Shown here in pieces: positions 196-14,100 of a stretch of 14,755 nt of DNA; positions within the stretch are counted from its first letter, which is position 1; every line of letters begins with the position of its first letter. Source of the DNA: Amoebophrya sp. AT5.2. Lineage: Eukaryota > Sar > Dinophyceae > Syndiniales > Amoebophryaceae. The notes beneath the pieces are model-generated. The model worked only from the letters and a program-made list of their open reading frames with translations, was not told the origin of the DNA and did not search any database. A program made the position numbers and the translations under genes. The stretch lies in contig RXOD01005324.1 of the NCBI GenBank assembly GCA_005223375.1, positions 1 through 14,755 of the forward strand, read 5' to 3'.

Positions 196-1441
196 GGGGT
201 TCGTACTGCTCGCGAGGTGCGAGAAGGAGGGCGAGAGACAGAAAAAGAACCCGAAGGAACGCGAAAGATAGAACGATGCCCCGGCGGTCTAGCAGTAAAA
301 TCACTGAGACTGAGGGCCCGGGAGTGCACGCGGCCCGTGGTGCTCTTGGTTTCGTTTCGTCACAGATCCATCTGCCGGCGCAACTTTATCAAGCGCCGGT
401 CGGGCGCCTTATCTTATGTCATGGCGCGCGGCTTCGCTTGTAAATCAATGTATACTCATCTTCACCATTCATCTGTTTCTGCTACAACTGCTCTGAATCT
501 GAAAGACTGCTTACTAAACCACTCTTCGAAAGAAAATTCCGCACCTATCGGTCCCCGGCGGCGAGGCGGCTCCTGGGGCTCCTGCGACTGGCCGGCATTG
601 GATACGGGGACGAACTACAACTACAACGAACTTCTTCAGGAGAGGTTCAGATTGCAAAGGTTCAGTGCCTGCTCTATCTAAAAATAAACAAGCAGACTCA
701 AACTACTAGCAAGCCGGGACCGGGTCCGGGAGGCATCTCTGTCTCCTAAGGGCCTGCTGCCGATCTGTTAGCTGTTGCTTGGTCAGCGAAGTAGCACCTT
801 CGAGCGACGGCATTCACACTTTCGCAGGCCAATCCAAGCGCAAGCCTCCGGCTAGCCGCTACGCGATCCGCCCTTGTTCTTCTTTTCAGTTCGTGGCTTC
901 ATTGCATTCTCATATGATGATTTAGATATAGATTTACCCAACTAGGGGCGTACTTCTAATGAATGAACAAGAGTAGACTGCAGCAAGTAGAATTAGAAAA
1001 CTCTCGGTCGGCTCCCGCCTATCGGCGTGCACAGGCAGCCCAACTCTCCGTGGTCCAATGTGTCCGAGATGCGAGGGTCGTCGTGCTTTCGCTTATGCAC
1101 GTGGTTGTTCATCGGGTCGCTCCCGTCAATGTCTAGGTGCGTGTCGTTAGAGCATCCCCTGCAAGTCTTCCTGCAACCGTGATAGGCGTCAGGATCAGCA
1201 TCATGGACGTCCCCCGAGTCCTCGAAGTGGCGAAACGCTTCCGAGCTGCTATGCCGGGGCCAATTCGGTGTAGTTCGTGTTCCGTATGATCAAATGAGTC
1301 CGTTTCTCGATAAATACTTATCTAAATCTATGTATAGTCGATCAATCTTCGAGATAAAGTATTAACTTGGTCATCTTCTACTTCTGATCCGGAAGAACCA
1401 ACTCTACAGCTGCTCTTTCCTTCCTCCACCGGGACATCTCA
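196..1441. other. No convincing gene; 3' flank of the secreted-protein gene
   Basis: About 1.25 kb downstream of the stop codon of the 447-aa gene. The plus strand has an open frame from about 217 to 681, but it lacks an ATG at its start, shows no recognisable domain and opposes the unidirectional cluster. The minus strand has no open frame of useful length between 330 and 1440. AT-rich patches near 910-960 and 1310-1350 could belong to 3'-UTR or intergenic DNA. I see no tRNA, rRNA or CRISPR structure here. Confidence 0.5.
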
Positions 1442-3624
1442 TCAGTATCGAACCGGATCAATCAATTCAAACTTGGAACGAAGCATCGAATTGGTCGCTT
1501 CTTGGTCTACGGTAAGTGTCCTCCCAGTTCCATATGGCGGAACCAGTTGGCCAAGTAGGTGAGTGGAGAGTAAAATTTTTTGGGGGCCTTCAATCAGGGT
1601 CCCCTTTATTGGCCGGTGTCGGTGGTCCTGCTAAGAGGCCAGCAGCTGGGGCTGCAGCTGCAATCCTAGGTGGGGCAAATAGCGGCGGCCTTTTGCGGTT
1701 GGCAAGCCTGGCACCGTCGCACCCTCAAGCTGACAGTAAGGCACTATTCTGGGCGCCCGCTTTTCCCCTGCTTTTAGGCTCTATCATCATTCAAGCCACT
1801 CGCCTTCCAACGTGGTGGGCTGCCACTTGTACCTCTGCGTCTACCCCGCCGCTCCATAATTCTAGGTCTAGTGACGCCTACCACCAATAATATTTTTATA
1901 CCTTTCCCTACCTCCACTTTCCACTTGTTCCTTTACCACCAGTTCCCTTCCTACTCCAGTCACGAAACTTGAACGCAACCTCGCCCGGATCTGGAAAGTC
2001 ATTGTCTTTGTCACTTGTCCACGTCGAGTTCCAATCGTACCTCTTCGCCCTCCCGTACAGCCCGCACAAAACTTCCTCGAAGCACCTCGCGTAGTCAAGT
2101 GGCACCTGGTATTTTCCGTGCTTGTCTTTATCATGGTCGCAAGCAGGAAACTTGTGCTTAAACGCGGCGATCTTCTCGTCGATAGTGCAGTGCGCGAAGT
2201 GCCCCTTGTGTACGCGGTCCGCGCAGTTCGATAAGTGTTCCGGATGGCACGCGGCCTTCCGCTGCCGCTCTGCCTCCTCCGGGTGCTCACTGTCGTCTTC
2301 CCAGTCCATGTTTTTTCGGCACTTCTCGTGGTCTGCTGTCACGGCGGCAACGCCTATGGCTTTCCCCCCTCTGCAGCTCTCCAGCATTATGTTTCTTGTT
2401 CCACCCGCATCTACTAATTCGTCGACATCCCGCGCGCCGCCACCGGCCCCCTTTACCTTCAGGGAGGCTGCGCTGGCCGGCGCCACGGTGCGGTAATTAG
2501 TAACCGCAGTGGCGCCAATCTGGCTCGTCTGCCGGCTTGCCTGTCGGCGGAGGCTGTCGGCGGAGGAAGTAGGCGCTGGTGCCGCCGGCGGAGGTAGTGG
2601 TGGTGCGCAGCACGGGAGACCTTGTTCTTGGAGCAGCGTAGACTCGTCCTCCTGCTCTCGTGGTTGCTCCAATTCATCTTCCGGATCATCTCCTGCTCGG
2701 GAGGTGGAGGTCGTGGTCGCGTCGAAGTTGTAGTACATCCTGGGGAGGTGGTCCCCGGCGTCGGCGTCGTGTTCCTCTTCATACGCTTCGTCCGAGAACT
2801 CCGAGTACAAGTCGCCTTTATGGCGAAACCAGATGACCAGTGGCTAAGAAGTGGTAAGTGATTTTTTGGGCGGGGGGCTCTTCGGGGTGGTCTTCGAAGT
2901 CCTGCTAAAAAGAGGGCAGCAGAAGTACTCCTGTACATAGCTAGGAGAAAGCGCGACCATTTCCGCGGTCGGCAGGTGTGGCATTGGTGTATGAGAGAGT
3001 ATGACCACCCAGCAAGCCCAGCCACTCAACAAGAACACAGCGCCACTCTGGGCGCCGGCCCCTTGTGCCCTGCTCTCATGCTCTAGCAGCAGCATCCTAG
3101 CGCCTGGCTTCCATGGCCTTCCTTTCCTTCCCGACGGCTCACTTCCCTACTGTTTCTAGTTCTACCCGCCCCCATCGAATGGGGCCCATTTGCCAGTTGC
3201 TCACTTACTTAGACTTACCATCTGGTCTCTCTCACTAGCCTTCCTCCGTCACCTCCGTGTACGAGTCGCCTTGCTCCTCCACTTCCACTTCACGCGGAGG
3301 ACGAGCTCGGAGGCTGGTTTGCTTTTGCTCCGTCCCCTCCGTGTACGAGTCGCCTTGCTCTTCCACTTCCACTTCACGCGGAGTAGCTCGGAGGCTGGTT
3401 TGCTTTCTCGCCACCTTCTCGACAATGCCGAGGGCGCCCCAAGTTGTACTACTACTAGATGAGGATGACAGAGACAGCCGCTCTGACACCGGCGGCCCAA
3501 CAAGGAACGTAGCTACCCTGGCGAACAGTAGTTGATGCACTGGGCCGCCCCCGCGGCTATCGCCACCCGCAAGCAAAGGCAGCAGCGGCAGCAGCCGCGC
3601 TGCGAACAACCTTCTCCTGCCCAT
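1442..3624 (-). CDS. Predicted secreted acidic, Cys-rich protein with tandem repeats (three exons)
   Basis: Not recognised as a known family. The proposed exons are 3624-3238, 2813-1939 and 1523-1442, giving about 447 aa. The ATG at 3624 opens a signal-peptide-like start (MGRRRLFAARLLPLLPLLAGG). Residues about 55-140 contain a serine run and two near-identical acidic repeats of about 28 residues with the core EVEVEEQGDSYTE, followed after splicing by a third degenerate copy, EEGDLYSE. A long low-complexity acidic/proline stretch follows. The C-terminal 150 residues hold about seven spaced cysteines and many His, Lys and Asp residues. Both introns are non-canonical: each is bounded by a direct repeat (AAGGC; GGAACTGG), and joining at the repeats keeps the frame and ends at a TGA at 1442-1444. 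Without removal, exons 1 and 2 run into TAG stops. A secreted parasite effector or surface protein is possible but is inference only. An extra upstream exon cannot be excluded. Confidence 0.62.
1524..1946 (-). mobile_element. Introner-like element R1 (non-canonical intron, 8-nt direct repeats)
   Basis: The direct repeat CCAGTTCC (plus strand) occurs at 1524-1531 and 1939-1946, a spacing of 415 nt. Excising one unit joins ...GGA ACT GG to G AGG ACA CTT in frame and adds about 26 codons before a stop. The plus-strand left end reads ATATGGCGGAACCAG, almost the same as the left end of R2 (TATGGCGAAACCAG). The other end carries an imperfect inverted copy (GGAAC.AGTGG on the minus strand). Internal blocks (TTTTTTGGG, GTCCTGCTAA, GGGCGCC) are shared with R2 at 2814-3242. 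The interior is in the same orientation as R2 and opposite to R3, relative to the host gene's direction. Confidence 0.65.
2814..3242 (-). mobile_element. Introner-like element R2 (non-canonical intron, 5-nt direct repeats and terminal inverted repeats)
   Basis: The direct repeat GCCTT (minus AAGGC) lies at 2814-2818 and 3238-3242, a spacing of 424 nt. Just inside it are inverted repeats: GAAACCAGATG at 2825-2835 and CATCTGGTCTC at 3219-3229 (one mismatch). Excision at AAGGC keeps the frame and fuses GAG GAA GGC to GAC TTG TAC. That junction recreates a unit matching the exon 1 tandem repeats at 21 of 24 bases. A standard-looking donor (ATG/GTAAGT on the minus strand, 3218-3213) and acceptor (CTTCTTAG, ending at 2843) lie inside the element, but using them would leave in-frame stops. 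The plus strand also has GTAAGT at 2854-2859, reading inward from the other end. Confidence 0.75.
3243..3406 (-). repeat. Two 81-84-nt coding tandem repeats in the secreted protein
   Basis: The plus-strand block CCTCCGTGTACGAGTCGCC occurs at 3252 and 3336 (period 84), followed in both copies by the same purine/pyrimidine-rich stretch and by GGAGGCTGGTTTGCTTT. The copies differ by a 3-nt indel and a few substitutions, so the minus-strand frame coding KQTSLRA...EVEVEEQGDSYTE is preserved. This supports the frame being translated. A shorter third copy (CTCCGAGTACAAGTCGCCTT) lies at 2801-2818, immediately across the R2 intron. Confidence 0.8.
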
Positions 3625-4504
3625 GGATATTACCGATGGACGAGGAGCGATATCTGGCTGCTCCGATGGAGCGATATTCCGGATTACCGATCCAGCCGGA
3701 TCACTTGTTGTCCGGATCACAGTTGTCGTCCGGATCCCCGATCCTCGCGACCCGCATGCTGCTCAAGCTCATCTTGAAGATCTCCTCATAACTTCTAAGT
3801 ACTTCATTGTCGCTTCCTCCTAAGATTCGTCTTTCAAAAATTTAAAAAATCGGATCTGATCCAGGAGCTGCTCGCTCGGCTCTCGACGAGGATCTAGAAT
3901 CTCATCAGTTGTAGCTTCTCGCGCCCGCGGGCATCAATAGCTTTCGCGTCGTGAGTTCTGCTAACTCTCTTATTGATCAATGAAAATGATGACAAACACA
4001 AATATAACCGCCGTGAGAGGTGGCAACTATGAGTCTCAGTAGCACCACTCTCCGCTACCACTGGAAATTATCCAGGTACCCCAGGTGGCTCATCTCACTG
4101 GCGGTTTCCAGTTCATCTCTCCAACAGGGATACAAGTAGAACAGTAGGTACTCAACCTCCAAGGTGGCATATAGCACGCAGTGCCCAAAGGAAGATCCCG
4201 CCACATAGCTCAGCAGTCGTGAGGATCTCGAGCAGTAGTCGAAGAAAGTCGACCACGCCGGCGAAGCAGGCTATCATGTTCGTGCTTGCCTCTATGAACC
4301 GTCTCGATACACATTATGGATGTCGTCCGATCATGAAACCGTAGGGCCTGCATGATGCCGTGAATGTGATGTAGATGTGATCAAAATCAAATTCAATTGG
4401 AGTATATATAAGTAATCTTCTTTTTAATTTTAAGTAGCGAGGAAGTAGTATAGTAAGATGAGCACCAGCTGGAAGTGGTCCATCACTCAGTTCGTAAAGC
4501 TGCG
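3625..4504. other. Intergenic stretch, no supported gene; short 18-nt repeats
   Basis: This region lies upstream of the secreted-protein start and downstream of the 104-aa ORF. From about 3690 to 3740 the motif CCGGATC recurs with 18-nt spacing (three times), next to other short repeats such as CGATAT and TTACCGAT, giving a locally repetitive promoter-proximal stretch. The rest contains only a 64-codon minus-strand frame (4508-4314) that overlaps the preceding stop codon in an ATGA arrangement and has no recognisable features. I could not identify RNA genes here. Confidence 0.5.
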
Positions 4505-4819
4505 TCATGGTGACTTCGAAGTCGTCTTCTTCTCGGCCTTCTTCTGCGCCTCCTTCGCGATTTTCCGCTTCCAGCGGTTCTTTTCGTTCACTGGATGTCG
4601 CCGTGAACGGAAAGAACCATAACCCGTGCAGTCCTTTGTGTCCTTCGGCGATGCGATGAATTGTTCTAATTGTAATTTATTTTTCTGAAAGAATATATGG
4701 GCTTGGTTTGCAAAATTTTGTACATCATTCAGTAAAGTGGAAACGCAACAGCCGATAGACTTCATCTTGGGCGGGGTATACTTGGTAGAGTGGAGTTGGA
4801 CCCGGCCCTGGTGGCCCAT
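4505..4819 (-). CDS. Hypothetical small basic protein, 104 aa
   Basis: The frame starts at an ATG (4819) and ends with TGA at 4505-4507. I do not recognise the family. The N-terminal part is mixed, the middle (residues about 25-55) is encoded by distinctly AT-rich DNA, and the C-terminal 30 residues are strongly basic (RSRRHPVNEKNRWKRKIAKE, then a lysine-rich tail), as in nucleolar or ribosome-associated proteins. The AT-rich middle contains a GTACAAAATTTTG...TATTCTTTCAG stretch that could itself be a short intron, which would remove part of the middle of the protein. Strand and position fit the unidirectional cluster. Product and exon structure are uncertain. Confidence 0.42.
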   Translation of the reverse strand: MGHQGRVQLHSTKYTPPKMKSIGCCVSTLLNDVQNFANQAHIFFQKNKLQLEQFIASPKDTKDCTGYGSFRSRRHPVNEKNRWKRKIAKEAQKKAEKKTTSKSP

Positions 4820-5161
4820 GATTCTCTAGCACTCCACTTCTCGAGCTCCTTGTCGTTCTGCTCGTTGGCTCGTCGCTTATTTTTTTATTCACGACTAGTA
4901 CAGTGTCGTCGACGACATCGACAGGCGCGAAGATGAAGATTTCGCACGTCTATAAAATATTAATGGCCTGAATTTGTATTCTGGCTATAAATATATATAT
5001 TTAAATACGGTGTCGGTGTATTGTTCCGGTGGCTGCTCCTGCAGCACCAATGGTACTGGTACAACACATACGCTGCTCGTACTGCTTTTGTATACAGAAG
5101 ATTCCATCCAGCAGCATTTCCTATGTTAAAAATCAGTGACGAGGCTCAACAGATCTCCGTC
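4820..5161. other. AT-rich intergenic gap
   Basis: About 340 nt between the stop of the large membrane-protein gene and the 104-aa ORF. It contains a notably AT-rich segment (about 4955-5005, with TATAAATATATATATTTAAAT) and no open frame of interest on the minus strand. It probably carries the 3' end of the upstream gene and the 5' end of the next, but no specific signal can be named with confidence. Confidence 0.45.
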
Positions 5162-8100
5162 TCACAGCGTTTCTTCGTCTTGCCCCCCTTCTCCGCCCAC
5201 GAATTCGTTTTTTTCTTCCAGCGCCAGGTACATGCTGCCCGCGGCGAGGGCGCAAGCGAGCCACACCGCGCACCAGCCGAGCCCGACTGTTAAGGAGGGG
5301 AGGACCAGGAACAGCGGGACGTTCAGCACGTTGTTCGCTCGGTTGCCCAGCATCTTCATCAGGTTGTTCCCGAACGAATGGCTCCAAGACTTCGCCTTCA
5401 CCTTCACCTTCGGCGTCGTCCGCAAAAACAGCACCGCCACCGTTATGAAGCGAGATCCAGCGATGGTACTCAGTGGCCAACTACTGGTATAAAAAAATAC
5501 TTCTTCGCGATGTTGGGTCGTTCCCACTTGGCGATGGCGACGGCGAGTGCCGATCATTAAAAATTTAAGGCGCTCTACTGAACGGTTTCAGAGATCATGC
5601 CCCAATTTGTGGAGGCGGGTAGAAAAAGGCGGACCTCTCGCTGGAGAGGAACCATCCATCGGGAGGTAGAGGGAATTGGAGAGAGCTACTGCTGTGGTGA
5701 TTCTTCTTCTTGGTTGTCAGCTATAGGGCGCCGGTGCAGGAGCCAGAGCCACAGCCAGGAATGTGCCGGTCATCTTACCGGCCGCGAAATGCGAATGCCA
5801 CCAGTGGTCCTACTACTGCAGCCTTCTGCTCAGGAGGACCACTAAAGACGACCCCCCGAAAAGGAAAAGAGCCCCCTATAATAAAAATTTAAATTTTAAA
5901 TTTCACCTTCACAACTAAGGACCTAGCTTGCCTACTTACCATCGCTGGTGAAGATCTCGGTCATCTCGCGCCGTAACCGTCGGGCCGCAGATGCTGAAGT
6001 GCACGGAGCTCCACAGCATCCAGAAGACCGCCACCAGCAGGTACCGCTGCAGGTAGGAAAGCCCGCCGTCGTTCCCGGGGAACCGCTCGATTCTGGTCAG
6101 CCGGTTCCCTCTCTCCAGCTTCCCGCTCCAGTCCTTGTCGGGCACCACCACCGTCAGAATGTGCAACTCATCTTTATCTGTATGTTTGTTGTTGTTTTCC
6201 TCCTCCGCCACCTGCGAGATTGCGCGGTTCAGAACGAGGACCAGTGCCCGCGCGCCCTCCTGCTGCACCTCGCGCGCGACCGCCTCGAAGGTCTTCGGCG
6301 ACGCGACCACGTACGCCCTCTGTCCGGGCGCGAACACGCTCGCGGGATCCAGCGGGAGCGGGACTAAAGAACCTAAAGATGAACTACTTCTACCGTGCTT
6401 GCCGAACAACGTGCAGAGCGACGAGGTGGAGTGAAAGGTGAGGTAGGCGCACTCCCGGTTGTGCTGCGCGCAGAGCTGCCCGCAAGCGTCCGCGGACTCC
6501 GCCTTCTTGGAGAGGTGGGAGAGCACCTCGAACTGGGGGCGGTTCTGCTCGTCGACGACCACCACACCCGCCGGCGGTGCCGCGATGGAGAGGTGCTTGC
6601 TCCACTCGTAGGAGACCACTTTGCCACCATAAGAACTTGAACTCGAACTCCGCGCGGGGGGACTGGAATCCGCCAGCCCGTACTCCACCACGTCGGCAGC
6701 AGTCAGCCCCTCCAGAACATTGCCCTGTCGTTAAATAAAATATTAATCAAAAGAACCTCCATTCACATGTACTATGAGTATTTATAGTATGCACAACGGG
6801 CACAGAAAGCCGGCCGGGAGGGCCGTCAGGTCCAGGTGGAGGGTCCTAGGAGCAAACTGCGCGCAAGGCGCGACCCTTCTCCGAGGACGGCAGGCGCGTG
6901 TCTGAAAGCAGCAACTGAAACAACTGTGGAAGCGATTCCGGAGGCCCCCTCCGGGAAATAACACGCAGGAAGCATCTAACACGTAGGAGGCATGTCAGGA
7001 GACATGCCAGGAGGGGCGAAGGAGCGCCATAGGAGACATCCAGGACGAAAATACCCGACAGAACAACAGCGCTGCGGCAGCCGAATAAAAAGATTCGAGA
7101 CAGTGACAGTATGGATGTAGTCAGTAAGTAATACAGAATAAGTATGTAAGAGTAAGTATAGATTAGCTACCCCCGCGGCTCCTGCAGCCAGGCTTGCTCG
7201 GTCGTTCCACGGGACGAAGGTTTGCGTGTAGCTGAGGGCTTTGTCGGCGTTGAGCTGGGTCCACGAGTGGTGTTCGCAGATGAACTCTGAGCCCGCGAAC
7301 ACGAAGAGGCACAGCGCACCCACCAGCGGGTTCAGGATGAGCGTGGTGCGCACGCCCAGTTTCTTTACCAGCTCCTGCGTGGCCATCACGTTCACCGCAG
7401 CGTTCAATCCTCCGGCCAGCAATCCGCACACGGTCATGAGTGTGAGCTTCTCGTCCTTCATGTGCGAGCAGGAGGGCCCGTTGAGCGAGGAACCGTTGTC
7501 CGGCGGGCAGGGGTAGATCCCCGCGAGGAGCACCGCCAGCTGGATGTCGATCATCTGGCGGATCGGCAAATTACTGTACGAGACGATGAACAGAAGAAAC
7601 ACGTACCGGTGGTTCACCGTGAGCGCGAGGCCCTCGATACTGCTCCACACCTGCTGCCGCACGGCCGCCCACACCGAAGATCCGGTGGGGGGCGCGGCGC
7701 CTGTTGTACTGAAAGAGCCGCCGCTAAGCTTGTACACGTAGGCCTTGAGGAGCTCGACGCGGTCGGACAGCGAGAGAACGACCTCCTTACCCCCGGCCAA
7801 ACGAGCCGTCGACGGCCGGGATAATTTGCCCGGATCCAAGTTTTGGTTTTGCCCGCTCGTCGCGATCCGGTCCCCGCGCGAAGACAACTGCTCGCCAGAG
7901 CAGAATGGCACCCGGTTATTTATTGAGGCAGCGCCGACGTTTCCATTACCATTTGGCGGTGTGTCGACACGGTCCAACTCGGCACCCAGGACCATGCGGC
8001 GCTGGCCACTCATCAACGGCCGGTGTTCCTCGGTGGAGGGGGGGTGTTGATACAGATCTTCAGCCTCCACCGGCGTTCCGTGGTCGCTGTCGATTTCGTG

Positions 8101-11165: not shown

Positions 11166-14100
11166 TCATCGCTTGTCGAGGTGCAGCTTGGCCCAGTTTC
11201 CCTGGCCCGAAATGGTTTCGTCCGTGACCCGCAGCACCGTGTGCTCCAGCACGTGCGACGCGCAGTTGGTGAAAAAGTTCTCGAGTTGCAGCTGCCCGTA
11301 CTGCCGCACGGTGTCCGTCCAGTACTCCTCCGCCCACAGTATTTTCGATTGTGGTCCAGGACCCCTTCCCCCTTCATGTTCATCCTTCATCGCGGGGGGG
11401 TGCAGTGCCGCATCCTCTTCCAGCGACGCGTCGTCGAAGAGGTTCTGCGCGGCTCGCGCGGGGAAGTCCAGCATCAGGGCGGAGCTGGTGCTGCTACTCT
11501 TGCTTTCGCCTTCGGTTTCAACATGTTCATGTTCACCAGCAGCTACCGCAGCCCCTGCTTCCACCTCCCGGAGTCGAAGAAGATCCTCGGGCGCTGGTGA
11601 CTCGAGCGGGTCCGTGCGCTGTCGCGGCCGCAGCGCGCGGAGGCCCTCGGACAACTTGCCCCGCACGCCCGTGGTCGGATCCAGCTGCGCGAGGTAGGGC
11701 GTCCGCTCCGACAGGTGCCACTCCAGTAACTGCTTGAACTCGCCGCCCTTCAAAAACAGCCTCATTCCCTCGACTACGGTCCCGCACACCTGGTCGAAGT
11801 CGCTCTTTCCCGTTCCGTCAGGGAGAACGCCGGCGTGTAGTTGTTTGGACGTAGTTGCCCCCGATCCACTCCTGGACTCTCCTGCTCCGCGCGGTGGTGC
11901 GTCTTCGATCACCATGGATGGAGGTCGTGACGAGGACGACGCTGCTCTCGAAGCGCCGGTGAGCGGGATGGATGGCTCCGACACCGCGACCAGGTGCTTC
12001 TCGCGTGCCAGCGCCATCGCGAAGTCAGAGGTCTCCTCGGCGCGGCACGCCACCGACAGCCGCACGAACAGGGGAAAGCTGGCCAGTGCTATTGATGGGG
12101 GACTTGCTGTTGCTCCTCCTGCACCTGCTGCGCCCTCGGAGAGCAGTTGCGACTGATCGATTTCTGAGAGCAGTTGCGAGAAGCCGAGGTTCTCCCGGTC
12201 CAGCTCGTCCGTCTTGGTCTCCTGCTCGCGCGTGCGCAAGAAGTTCTGCTCGAGCTTCTTGTAGGCCCGCCGCGGCGTCAGGTTGGATATGTGGCTCGAC
12301 AGCAGTGCGGTGCGGTCCAGCGACCGGTTTAGGTACTTCTGGCCCGCGGCGGTGGACATCAAGGCGCGGAACCGGGCCACGGTGAGCCGATTCACCACCG
12401 ACACATGCCGATTCGCGAAGTTCCCCGGGTCGTACGTCGGCTCGTGGATGTTCTCAGCGTGGGCGGCGAACACCTCCTCGTTCTCAGCCCCGTCCGCACG
12501 CTCCCACGGGTCAGGGCCCGGCGGCGGCGCCGGGTGCAACAACTCCCAGCTTATCTGGCACTCCAGATCGCCAACCAGCTCCAAGGGACCTTCGATGCAG
12601 TGCAGTTTATGTTCTGACGACCAACCAACCAAACCATCTGAATAAGAAATCATTGAAAGAGTACCAATACCGTCACTCGCTGGAGCTAGTAGTAAAACTA
12701 AAATACTAGTTGTAATACTCATCGCTGCTGGTACCATACATACTTTTGTACCTTCGATGCAGTGCAGTCGGAAGAGGATGATTTGGTGGGTGCCGGGGTA
12801 GAGGGTTCCCGACTCCGGCGTGATGCTGAATTCCTCGCTGTTGCGGAACAGCCCCTGCGTGCGCCAGTGGAAGGCCAGGACGGAGTCCTTAGAATAGTTG
12901 ACGAGCGCCACAATCTTGGTGTTTACGCTGTCCAGGGACGCTATGGCGATTTCTTCTACTTCACTTGCATCCACTTCAATAATTTTGAAGGTGAACTGGA
13001 ACTGCTGCCCGGGGGTTACCGGGGCACGGGGTCGGGAGGTAGGTGACACGGGGAGCAGAGGTGTCCTCCGGGACTCCTGGCCATTCCTAGTAGAAGGAGG
13101 CGCCTTCGTCCTCTTTCATGCCTGCGGGGTATCACCGATGCAGCTGATACTAGGCACCAATGCAACCCCGGAGAGGCATCTACGGAGGGGGCCTCTTGGG
13201 TTACAGACTGTGGTCGGGGATGGGGTTCGGGAGCTGGCTGACTATCCTATGTCTATGAGGGGAGGTACAACCGTTGAATTTTTGTTCCGAATGAAGTAGA
13301 AAAAATCGGCATAAGCACCACGCCGAAGTCCACCGCCTCGCACGAGAGCGCCGCCCCGTAGTTGGGCAGCGGGGCGTAGGTCTGCAGCGGCAGCGTCGGC
13401 CCGAAGGGCGGCGTGAGGTAGCCCAGCGGGGGAGGGTTATTGCCCAATTTCTGGGGGTCGAACCCGTGCGCGCACAGTTCGAAGTCCAGCGTCTCCTTAC
13501 AGGGGTGAAATAAAACCCACTTTTGGAGGCATTTCTGACGCCGATGGCTATCGCTAGTACGACTTGACTGCTAGTACGGCGAGCGACTACGACACGGAAA
13601 ACGAAATACACGAGACAACGCGGACAAATTCCTGGCAGTGGCACTTCCTGGCTATCAATTTGCGGCGCTTGCTCCCTCCCTCGCTGCAACGGGCACAATG
13701 CGACCAGACACGGGACCCAATACAAGGCAAACCATGAGACGAAATGCAAGAGAATAAATACCAGCCGGGAGACCCTCGGCATAGGTCATAGCAGCTTGCT
13801 TTAAAGATCGGAGCGGACGACGACGAGCTATAGAAGTAGCCCACCTCAATCGATCGAGACAATCTCTCGCGCCGGAAACCAAAGTGGGTTTTTTAAAACT
13901 CTATCCTCTTCGCTTAATCTCCACAACCGAGGATCCGTCCCCCCGGAGCGTGAGGTCGATCTTGATGGGGCAGCGGATGCGCTTTTCCTCGATCGGGGTG
14001 AAGTGGCAGTGGAGGAAGATGCGCGACTTCGGCTCCAGCACCCCACTTACCGGGTGGACTGTCAACAGCGGGAAGCCGTACCCCTCTCGCTCCTGCAGGT

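Follow-up and report, generated by a model that had tools for sequence, protein, structure and literature searches.

Genes and inserted elements in the window

The window, i.e., the whole stretch of 14,755 nucleotides analyzed here, carries gene A, gene B, and a CFAP65/HYDIN-like gene, all on the minus strand. As an earlier sequence-only reading had it, repeated elements lie in two neighboring genes; R1 and R2 are in gene A and R3 is in the next gene, gene B. The genes, the elements, and the copies of the target sites are as follows.

993-3624, minus strand: gene A, exons about 3624-3238, 2813-1954, 1527-1515, and 1244-993, based on the transcript protein P0003
5162-6730 (5′ end undefined), minus strand: gene B, exon to 5976, then 5438-5162; PAN domain
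1533-1953, minus strand: R1 element, 421 bp, gene A intron, with arms and flanking 5-bp repeats
1528-1532, minus strand: R1 right target-site copy, TGGAA (gene strand)
1954-1958, minus strand: R1 left target-site copy, TGGAG (gene strand)
2819-3237, minus strand: R2 element, 419 bp, gene A intron
2814-2818, minus strand: R2 right target-site copy, AAGGC
3238-3242, minus strand: R2 left target-site copy, AAGGC
5444-5975, minus strand: R3 element, 532 bp, interrupting gene B, interior reversed relative to R1 and R2
5439-5443, minus strand: R3 right target-site copy, ACGGT
5976-5980, minus strand: R3 left target-site copy, ACGGT
1250-1514, minus strand: R4, third gene A intron (from P0003), 265 bp, ends TA...CATA, diverged 5-nt flanks ACACT/GCAGC (1245-1519 with flanks)
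12942-13313, minus strand: R5, 372 bp, an element of similar kind within the CFAP65/HYDIN-like gene; its 5-nt flanks, GTGCT/GCGTC, have diverged

Gene A has no Pfam family over its cut-off. An 84-bp tandem repeat at 3241-3406, encoding 28 residues, has two copies in the assembly but a single one in P0003. The PAN domain of gene B (PF00024) was found with E 5.6e-6 and 26.6 bits (cut-off 21.4), and the frame of this gene is joined across R3. With a cut-off of E 0.001, the 7998 best candidates included no gene B homologue or transcript protein, leaving R3 without a transcript match. The arms of R5 are 22 nt long and 91% complementary; taking R5 out at the 5-nt offset brings the two parts of an Ig-like domain into one frame, and HYDIN aligns gaplessly over the junction with a low per-domain score. 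Pfam gave no family on the CFAP65-like piece spanning R5, and Rfam gave nothing over the gathering score on the window. Elsewhere in the CFAP65/HYDIN-like gene, at 12588-12768, two perfect 19-nt direct repeats lie 162 nt apart; the sequence between them is in frame and free of stops and is perhaps one more removable segment.

Edges, duplications, and shared sequence of R1-R3

R1, R2, and R3 are confirmed as members of one superfamily of short elements with terminal inverted repeats (TIRs), approximately TATGGCGAGACCAGATGGTAAGTGG, and 5-bp target-site duplications. A TIR subfamily pattern matches within R3 at 5932-5949. On the gene strand, R1 and R2 start with TAG and R3 with TAC, and all three end with CATA; next to the direct repeat these ends read CCATA in R1 and R2 and TTCATA in R3, in agreement with the sequence-only reading. 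An in-frame TAG at 3235-3237 directly follows the left copy of the R2 duplication. The duplication of R1 is imperfect (TGGAG/TGGAA), with four of five bases equal.

The shared blocks proposed by the sequence-only reading are real. When the pairs were aligned with R3 reverse-complemented, both R1-R2 and R2-R3 scored above all 200 dinucleotide shuffles; the similarity of R1 to reverse-complemented R3 is weaker, being reached by 5 of 200 shuffles. Alignments in the opposite orientations were unremarkable, reached by 24, 82, and 120 of 200 shuffles. Hence the similarity is found only in the orientation originally claimed, with the R1 and R2 interiors running one way and that of R3 the other. The edges of the intervals first assigned to the elements (1524-1946, 2814-3242, and 5440-5974) are corrected to 1533-1953, 2819-3237, and 5444-5975. 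The direct repeats at the borders were likewise recognized by that reading, which left the non-GT-AG nature of the ends unremarked. Its repeat for R1, CCAGTTCC, was wrong: used as the duplication it keeps the frame open and would give RKGTG, yet P0003 rules out this junction.

Transcript evidence for exact removal

At a cut-off of E 0.001, spliced gene A matched a single one of the 7988 candidates scored: P0003, a complete MMETSP transcript protein. Over the part that ends with WEDT, P0003 agrees with spliced gene A at 391 of 392 aligned residues and lacks one copy of the 28-residue repeat. At R2 the protein reads TEEG|DLYSE and at R1 FRDWNWEDT, in both cases as expected from exact removal at the repeats. 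The single differing residue is the N at the R1 junction, explained by the codon AAC from the right copy of the duplication; the left copy would encode S. At R4 the protein reads WEDT|SEAF and continues SEAFRH. R4 is skipped at the 5-nt offset despite its diverged flanks, and at least four bases of the left flank copy are kept. From this one transcript, a cut after the fourth base of the duplication would fit both R1 and R4.

As expected of introner elements of the Amoebophrya type, R1, R2, and R4 are excised from the mRNA according to P0003, and their junctions fall within the 5-nt flanks and have non-GT-AG borders. The family also has inverted repeats at both ends, and its border repeats fall in the expected range of 3-5 nt. 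That R1 and R2 are introns is thus supported by an mRNA-derived protein.

A genome-wide family with 5-bp duplications

The assembly to which the window belongs comprises 50.7 Mb in 2759 contigs. The 21-mer of the dinoflagellate spliced leader occurs in it 18 times exactly and 65 times with at most three mismatches (reversed control, 3), which indicates that the organism is a dinoflagellate. Relatives of R1, R2, and R3 are present outside the window: among the best candidates scored, at least 41 pieces matched R2, at least 18 R1, and at least 7 R3, the query itself counted. The family arms resemble TATGG(C/A)GAGACCAGATGGTAAGTGG, with CCAGCGATGG instead in R3. Three TIR patterns, allowing two mismatches, match 289, 670, and 160 places, and the reversed controls 0, 4, and 2; these totals are not copy numbers, since the patterns overlap and each element has two ends. 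In contigs C128, C801, C1214, and C2601, TIR matches lie within about 20 bases of the contig ends, as if the assembly breaks there.

From 98 loci (some overlapping, and three being the window itself), 46 end pairs were picked by TIR match alone. R1, with arms that have diverged too far to pass the cut, is not among them, and neither is R3, whose arms the pattern missed. The elements are 176-563 bp long. A perfect 5-bp duplication flanks 30 of the 46, compared with 0.26% in the between-element control; four of five bases agree in five elements, three of five in three, and none or one in eight, where R2 is counted because its left arm is offset. The duplication extends to 6 bp in none of the 46. 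TIRs together with a target-site duplication of fixed length are the hallmarks of MITEs, i.e., non-autonomous TIR transposons, and a 5-bp duplication alone is insufficient to name the transposon superfamily.

Reading phase and homology across the junctions

ORF length over the junction was tried and dropped as a test of removal (13 wins, 13 ties, and 9 losses among 35 elements). It is too weak in this GC-rich genome, and therefore a test based on codon usage was used, in which the frame was scored on 180-nt flanks after removing the element plus 5 nt. The flanks were in phase in 33 of 37 scorable cases from all 46 elements and in 27 of 28 from the 35 elements with at least four of five duplicated bases (binomial p 6e-9). 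Stricter score cuts gave 28/32 and 18/20. In comparison, mismatched flanks taken from different loci were in phase in 431 of 964 scorable cases (45%) out of 1190. Four scorable elements are out of phase, including L079, which has a 5/5 duplication. The strand is clear for 30 in-phase elements, of which 26 are open through the junction; in the other four (L033, L074, L083, and L087) a stop lies in the left-flank frame ahead of it. Coding-like flanks on both sides were found for 28 of 35 elements; random positions drawn from these loci had them in 1194 of 3000 cases. The restored reading phase supports the conclusion that the family consists of introns. As a separate observation, the value of 45% for mismatched flanks, where 33% would be expected by chance, suggests a preferred codon phase of insertion.

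Homology points the same way at individual loci. A dynein heavy chain (L095; AAA1 region, GKF|FKGL) and a GH2 enzyme (L072) align gaplessly at the predicted junctions. Pfam was run on 10 of 30 spliced locus proteins, chosen by eye, and a domain spans the junction in seven of them, by just three residues for CNNM in L031; three of the seven domains score below the curated cut-off. Of the remaining proteins, two have no domain and one has a domain that ends before the junction. The trypsin-like protein of L045 had no PDB match, and the match for the NUDIX protein of L053 is confined to the region upstream of its junction. In L095, the intron that follows the dynein exon ending in MNPGY seems to be without GT-AG and to be bordered by just a TAC repeat; this intron was read by comparison with the conserved stretch GYAGRTELPDN.

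Orientation and symmetry of the ends

Orientation was judged by the best alignment to R1-R3. Relative to the gene strand, the 32 elements with a clear strand divide 14 versus 13, with 5 unclear; over all 46 elements the corresponding numbers are 19, 21, and 6. This division supports the spread in the manner of DNA transposons that the sequence-only reading had proposed, as do the TIRs and the perfect 5-bp duplications around 30 of the 46 elements.

The ends themselves are alike on the two strands. When 45 nt are considered at the start of the element, GGTAAGT is present in 27 of 32 left arms, and it is about as frequent in the mirrored right arms (25 of 32), so it is part of the TIR and not a strand-specific donor. 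Comparing the strands at 32 arm positions gave no p value below 0.05, with two positions at 0.053. Leaving the duplication aside, none of the 32 elements has an AG in the last 22 nt. Within the last 45 nt, the counts for the gene strand and the opposite strand are 36 versus 38 for AG, 21 versus 15 for CAG, and 7 versus 17 for TAG (p 0.064). The deficit of TAG on the gene strand is possibly a small strand difference. Compared with the other strand, the sequence before the 3′ end shows no bias toward pyrimidines or toward T (Wilcoxon p 0.32 and 0.55). A rule that splices from GTRAG to the last AG inside the element keeps a stop-free frame in 9 of 28 elements, and the GY...AG borders of canonical GT-AG introners were not found. 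The elements are introners with non-GT-AG and apparently orientation-blind ends, like the introner elements of Amoebophrya.

In all 32 elements, and on either strand, the first 32 nt are predicted to pair with the last 32, an unavoidable consequence of the TIRs. When 25 shuffles were made per element, the end pairing of R1 and R2 scored above every one; that of R3 and R4 was matched or exceeded by at least one. No covariation of the two arms within elements was detected (identity 0.838, against 0.846 when shuffled), and arm mismatches of the GU and AC types are equally frequent, 34 versus 34. A search for the RtcB ligase gave no candidate in an assembly that may be incomplete and whose genes are split by introns; the same search matched 9 of 14 control genomes. 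Rfam gave no match to U1 or U2, with controls equally silent.

Proposed mechanism and alternatives

R1-R3 are very probably introner elements, i.e., short non-autonomous TIR DNA transposons that are removed from the message. Copies would have inserted into coding exons in either orientation, presumably moved by a transposase, and each insertion would have duplicated 5 bp of target. The element and one 5-bp copy would then leave the mRNA, which restores the reading frame. The transposon anatomy and the presence of both orientations are observed directly. Removal is exact at R1, R2, and R4 according to the mRNA-derived protein and elsewhere according to reading phase and homology. The junctions that the transcript supports lack GT-AG, and a strand-specific signal at the ends was not detected in 32 elements. 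Base pairing of the two ends may guide removal by bringing the junctions together on either strand; given the symmetry of the ends, this is best inferred as the route, which could involve a modified spliceosome or be independent of the spliceosome. More tentatively, and with a likelihood that we place somewhat short of even, these could be truly orientation-blind nuclear introns. Their inverted-repeat ends and 5-bp duplication would then hold everything needed for removal, by an end-pairing excision that ignores GT-AG and always cuts the duplication between its fourth and fifth bases. A transposon copy would consequently work as an intron whichever way it lands.

That these are ordinary spliceosomal introns, which use GTAAGT in the left arm as their donor and take as acceptor an AG within the element or immediately downstream of it, is extremely improbable. 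GGTAAGT is indeed found within the first 45 nt in 27/32 elements, but it is about as common in the mirrored right arm (25/32), the in-frame TAG of R2 precedes GTAAGT, and the simple rule keeps a frame without a stop in just 9/28. Moreover, the exact 5-bp junctions in P0003 exclude ordinary splicing for R1 and R2. It is rather unlikely, and a more serious contender, that a relaxed spliceosome reads hidden signals, such as a branch point or others in the interior, and settles on the duplicated 5 nt, the end pairing being a relic of the TIRs. Excerpts of PMC7789003 report 83 of 89 spliceosomal proteins, i.e., all but six, in Amoebophrya, and the absent arm covariation and the slight strand difference in TAG near the 3′ end (7 versus 17) fit as well. 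However, there is no pyrimidine or T bias (p 0.32 and 0.55), and the near-equal orientations leave little room for strand-specific interior signals. The internal eliminated sequences of ciliates are cut from the expressed genome copy at the DNA level, and similar removal here, not from RNA, would fit exact, orientation-blind excision leaving one target copy equally well; a transcript protein is unable to tell DNA from RNA excision. Nevertheless, we know of no second nucleus in Amoebophrya, which counts against this improbable reading. So does the fact that RNA-seq-supported Amoebophrya introns were called against assembled genomes (excerpts of PMC7789003).

Relation to known introners

Excerpts of PMC7789003 describe introner elements in Amoebophrya A25 and A120 with non-GT-AG borders, TIRs, and direct repeats of 3-5 nt, and repeated introns numbering in the thousands. 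The resemblance claimed by the sequence-only reading is borne out in the main traits: a dinoflagellate host, non-GT-AG borders, and inverted and direct repeats, those inverted in A120 starting with TAT as they do here (PMC7789003, in part). There are also differences. The duplication here is 5 bp where intact, compared with 3-5 nt in A25/A120; lengths of 176-563 bp compare with averages of 120 and 240 nt for their non-canonical introns (both from excerpts of PMC7789003). In addition, one TIR motif recurs here over subfamilies, and measuring the orientation relative to the gene strand gave a nearly even division. In the excerpts, family repeat motifs appear in the Results of PMC7789003, and its Discussion reports that no family-specific motif was detected.

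The GY-AG introners of other eukaryotes are likewise repeated elements that form introns genome-wide, some with TIRs and target-site duplications; unlike the elements here, with no GT-AG at the transcript-supported junctions, they carry or co-opt splice sites (excerpts of PMC9860276). The method in that paper allows for insertion in the opposite orientation. We did not find even orientation of such introns reported in the excerpts of PMC7789003 and PMC9860276, and it may already be published. The nonconventional introns of euglenids and diplonemids share non-canonical borders, short direct repeats, and a proposed MITE-like origin, and they have paired ends, as is predicted for the ends here (PMC12621601, PMC6221363, in part). 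They belong to the Euglenozoa lineage, in contrast to the multi-copy TIR family with a measured 5-bp duplication described here. In SOS splicing, too, a DNA transposon is cut out of the mRNA and the message rejoined; that process is known from animals and uses the RTCB ligase (PMC13247085, in part); the present, possibly incomplete assembly gave no RtcB match.

In excerpts of PMC7789003 and PMC12621601, the route by which introns of this kind are excised in Amoebophrya, euglenids, and diplonemids is treated as unsettled. The present family, with many copies in both orientations, a defined TIR, and a 5-bp footprint, amounts to a natural experiment: with sense and antisense copies both present, the features common to both must suffice for removal. 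The family also suggests that a DNA transposon, once inserted, can work as an intron with no splice site there beforehand.
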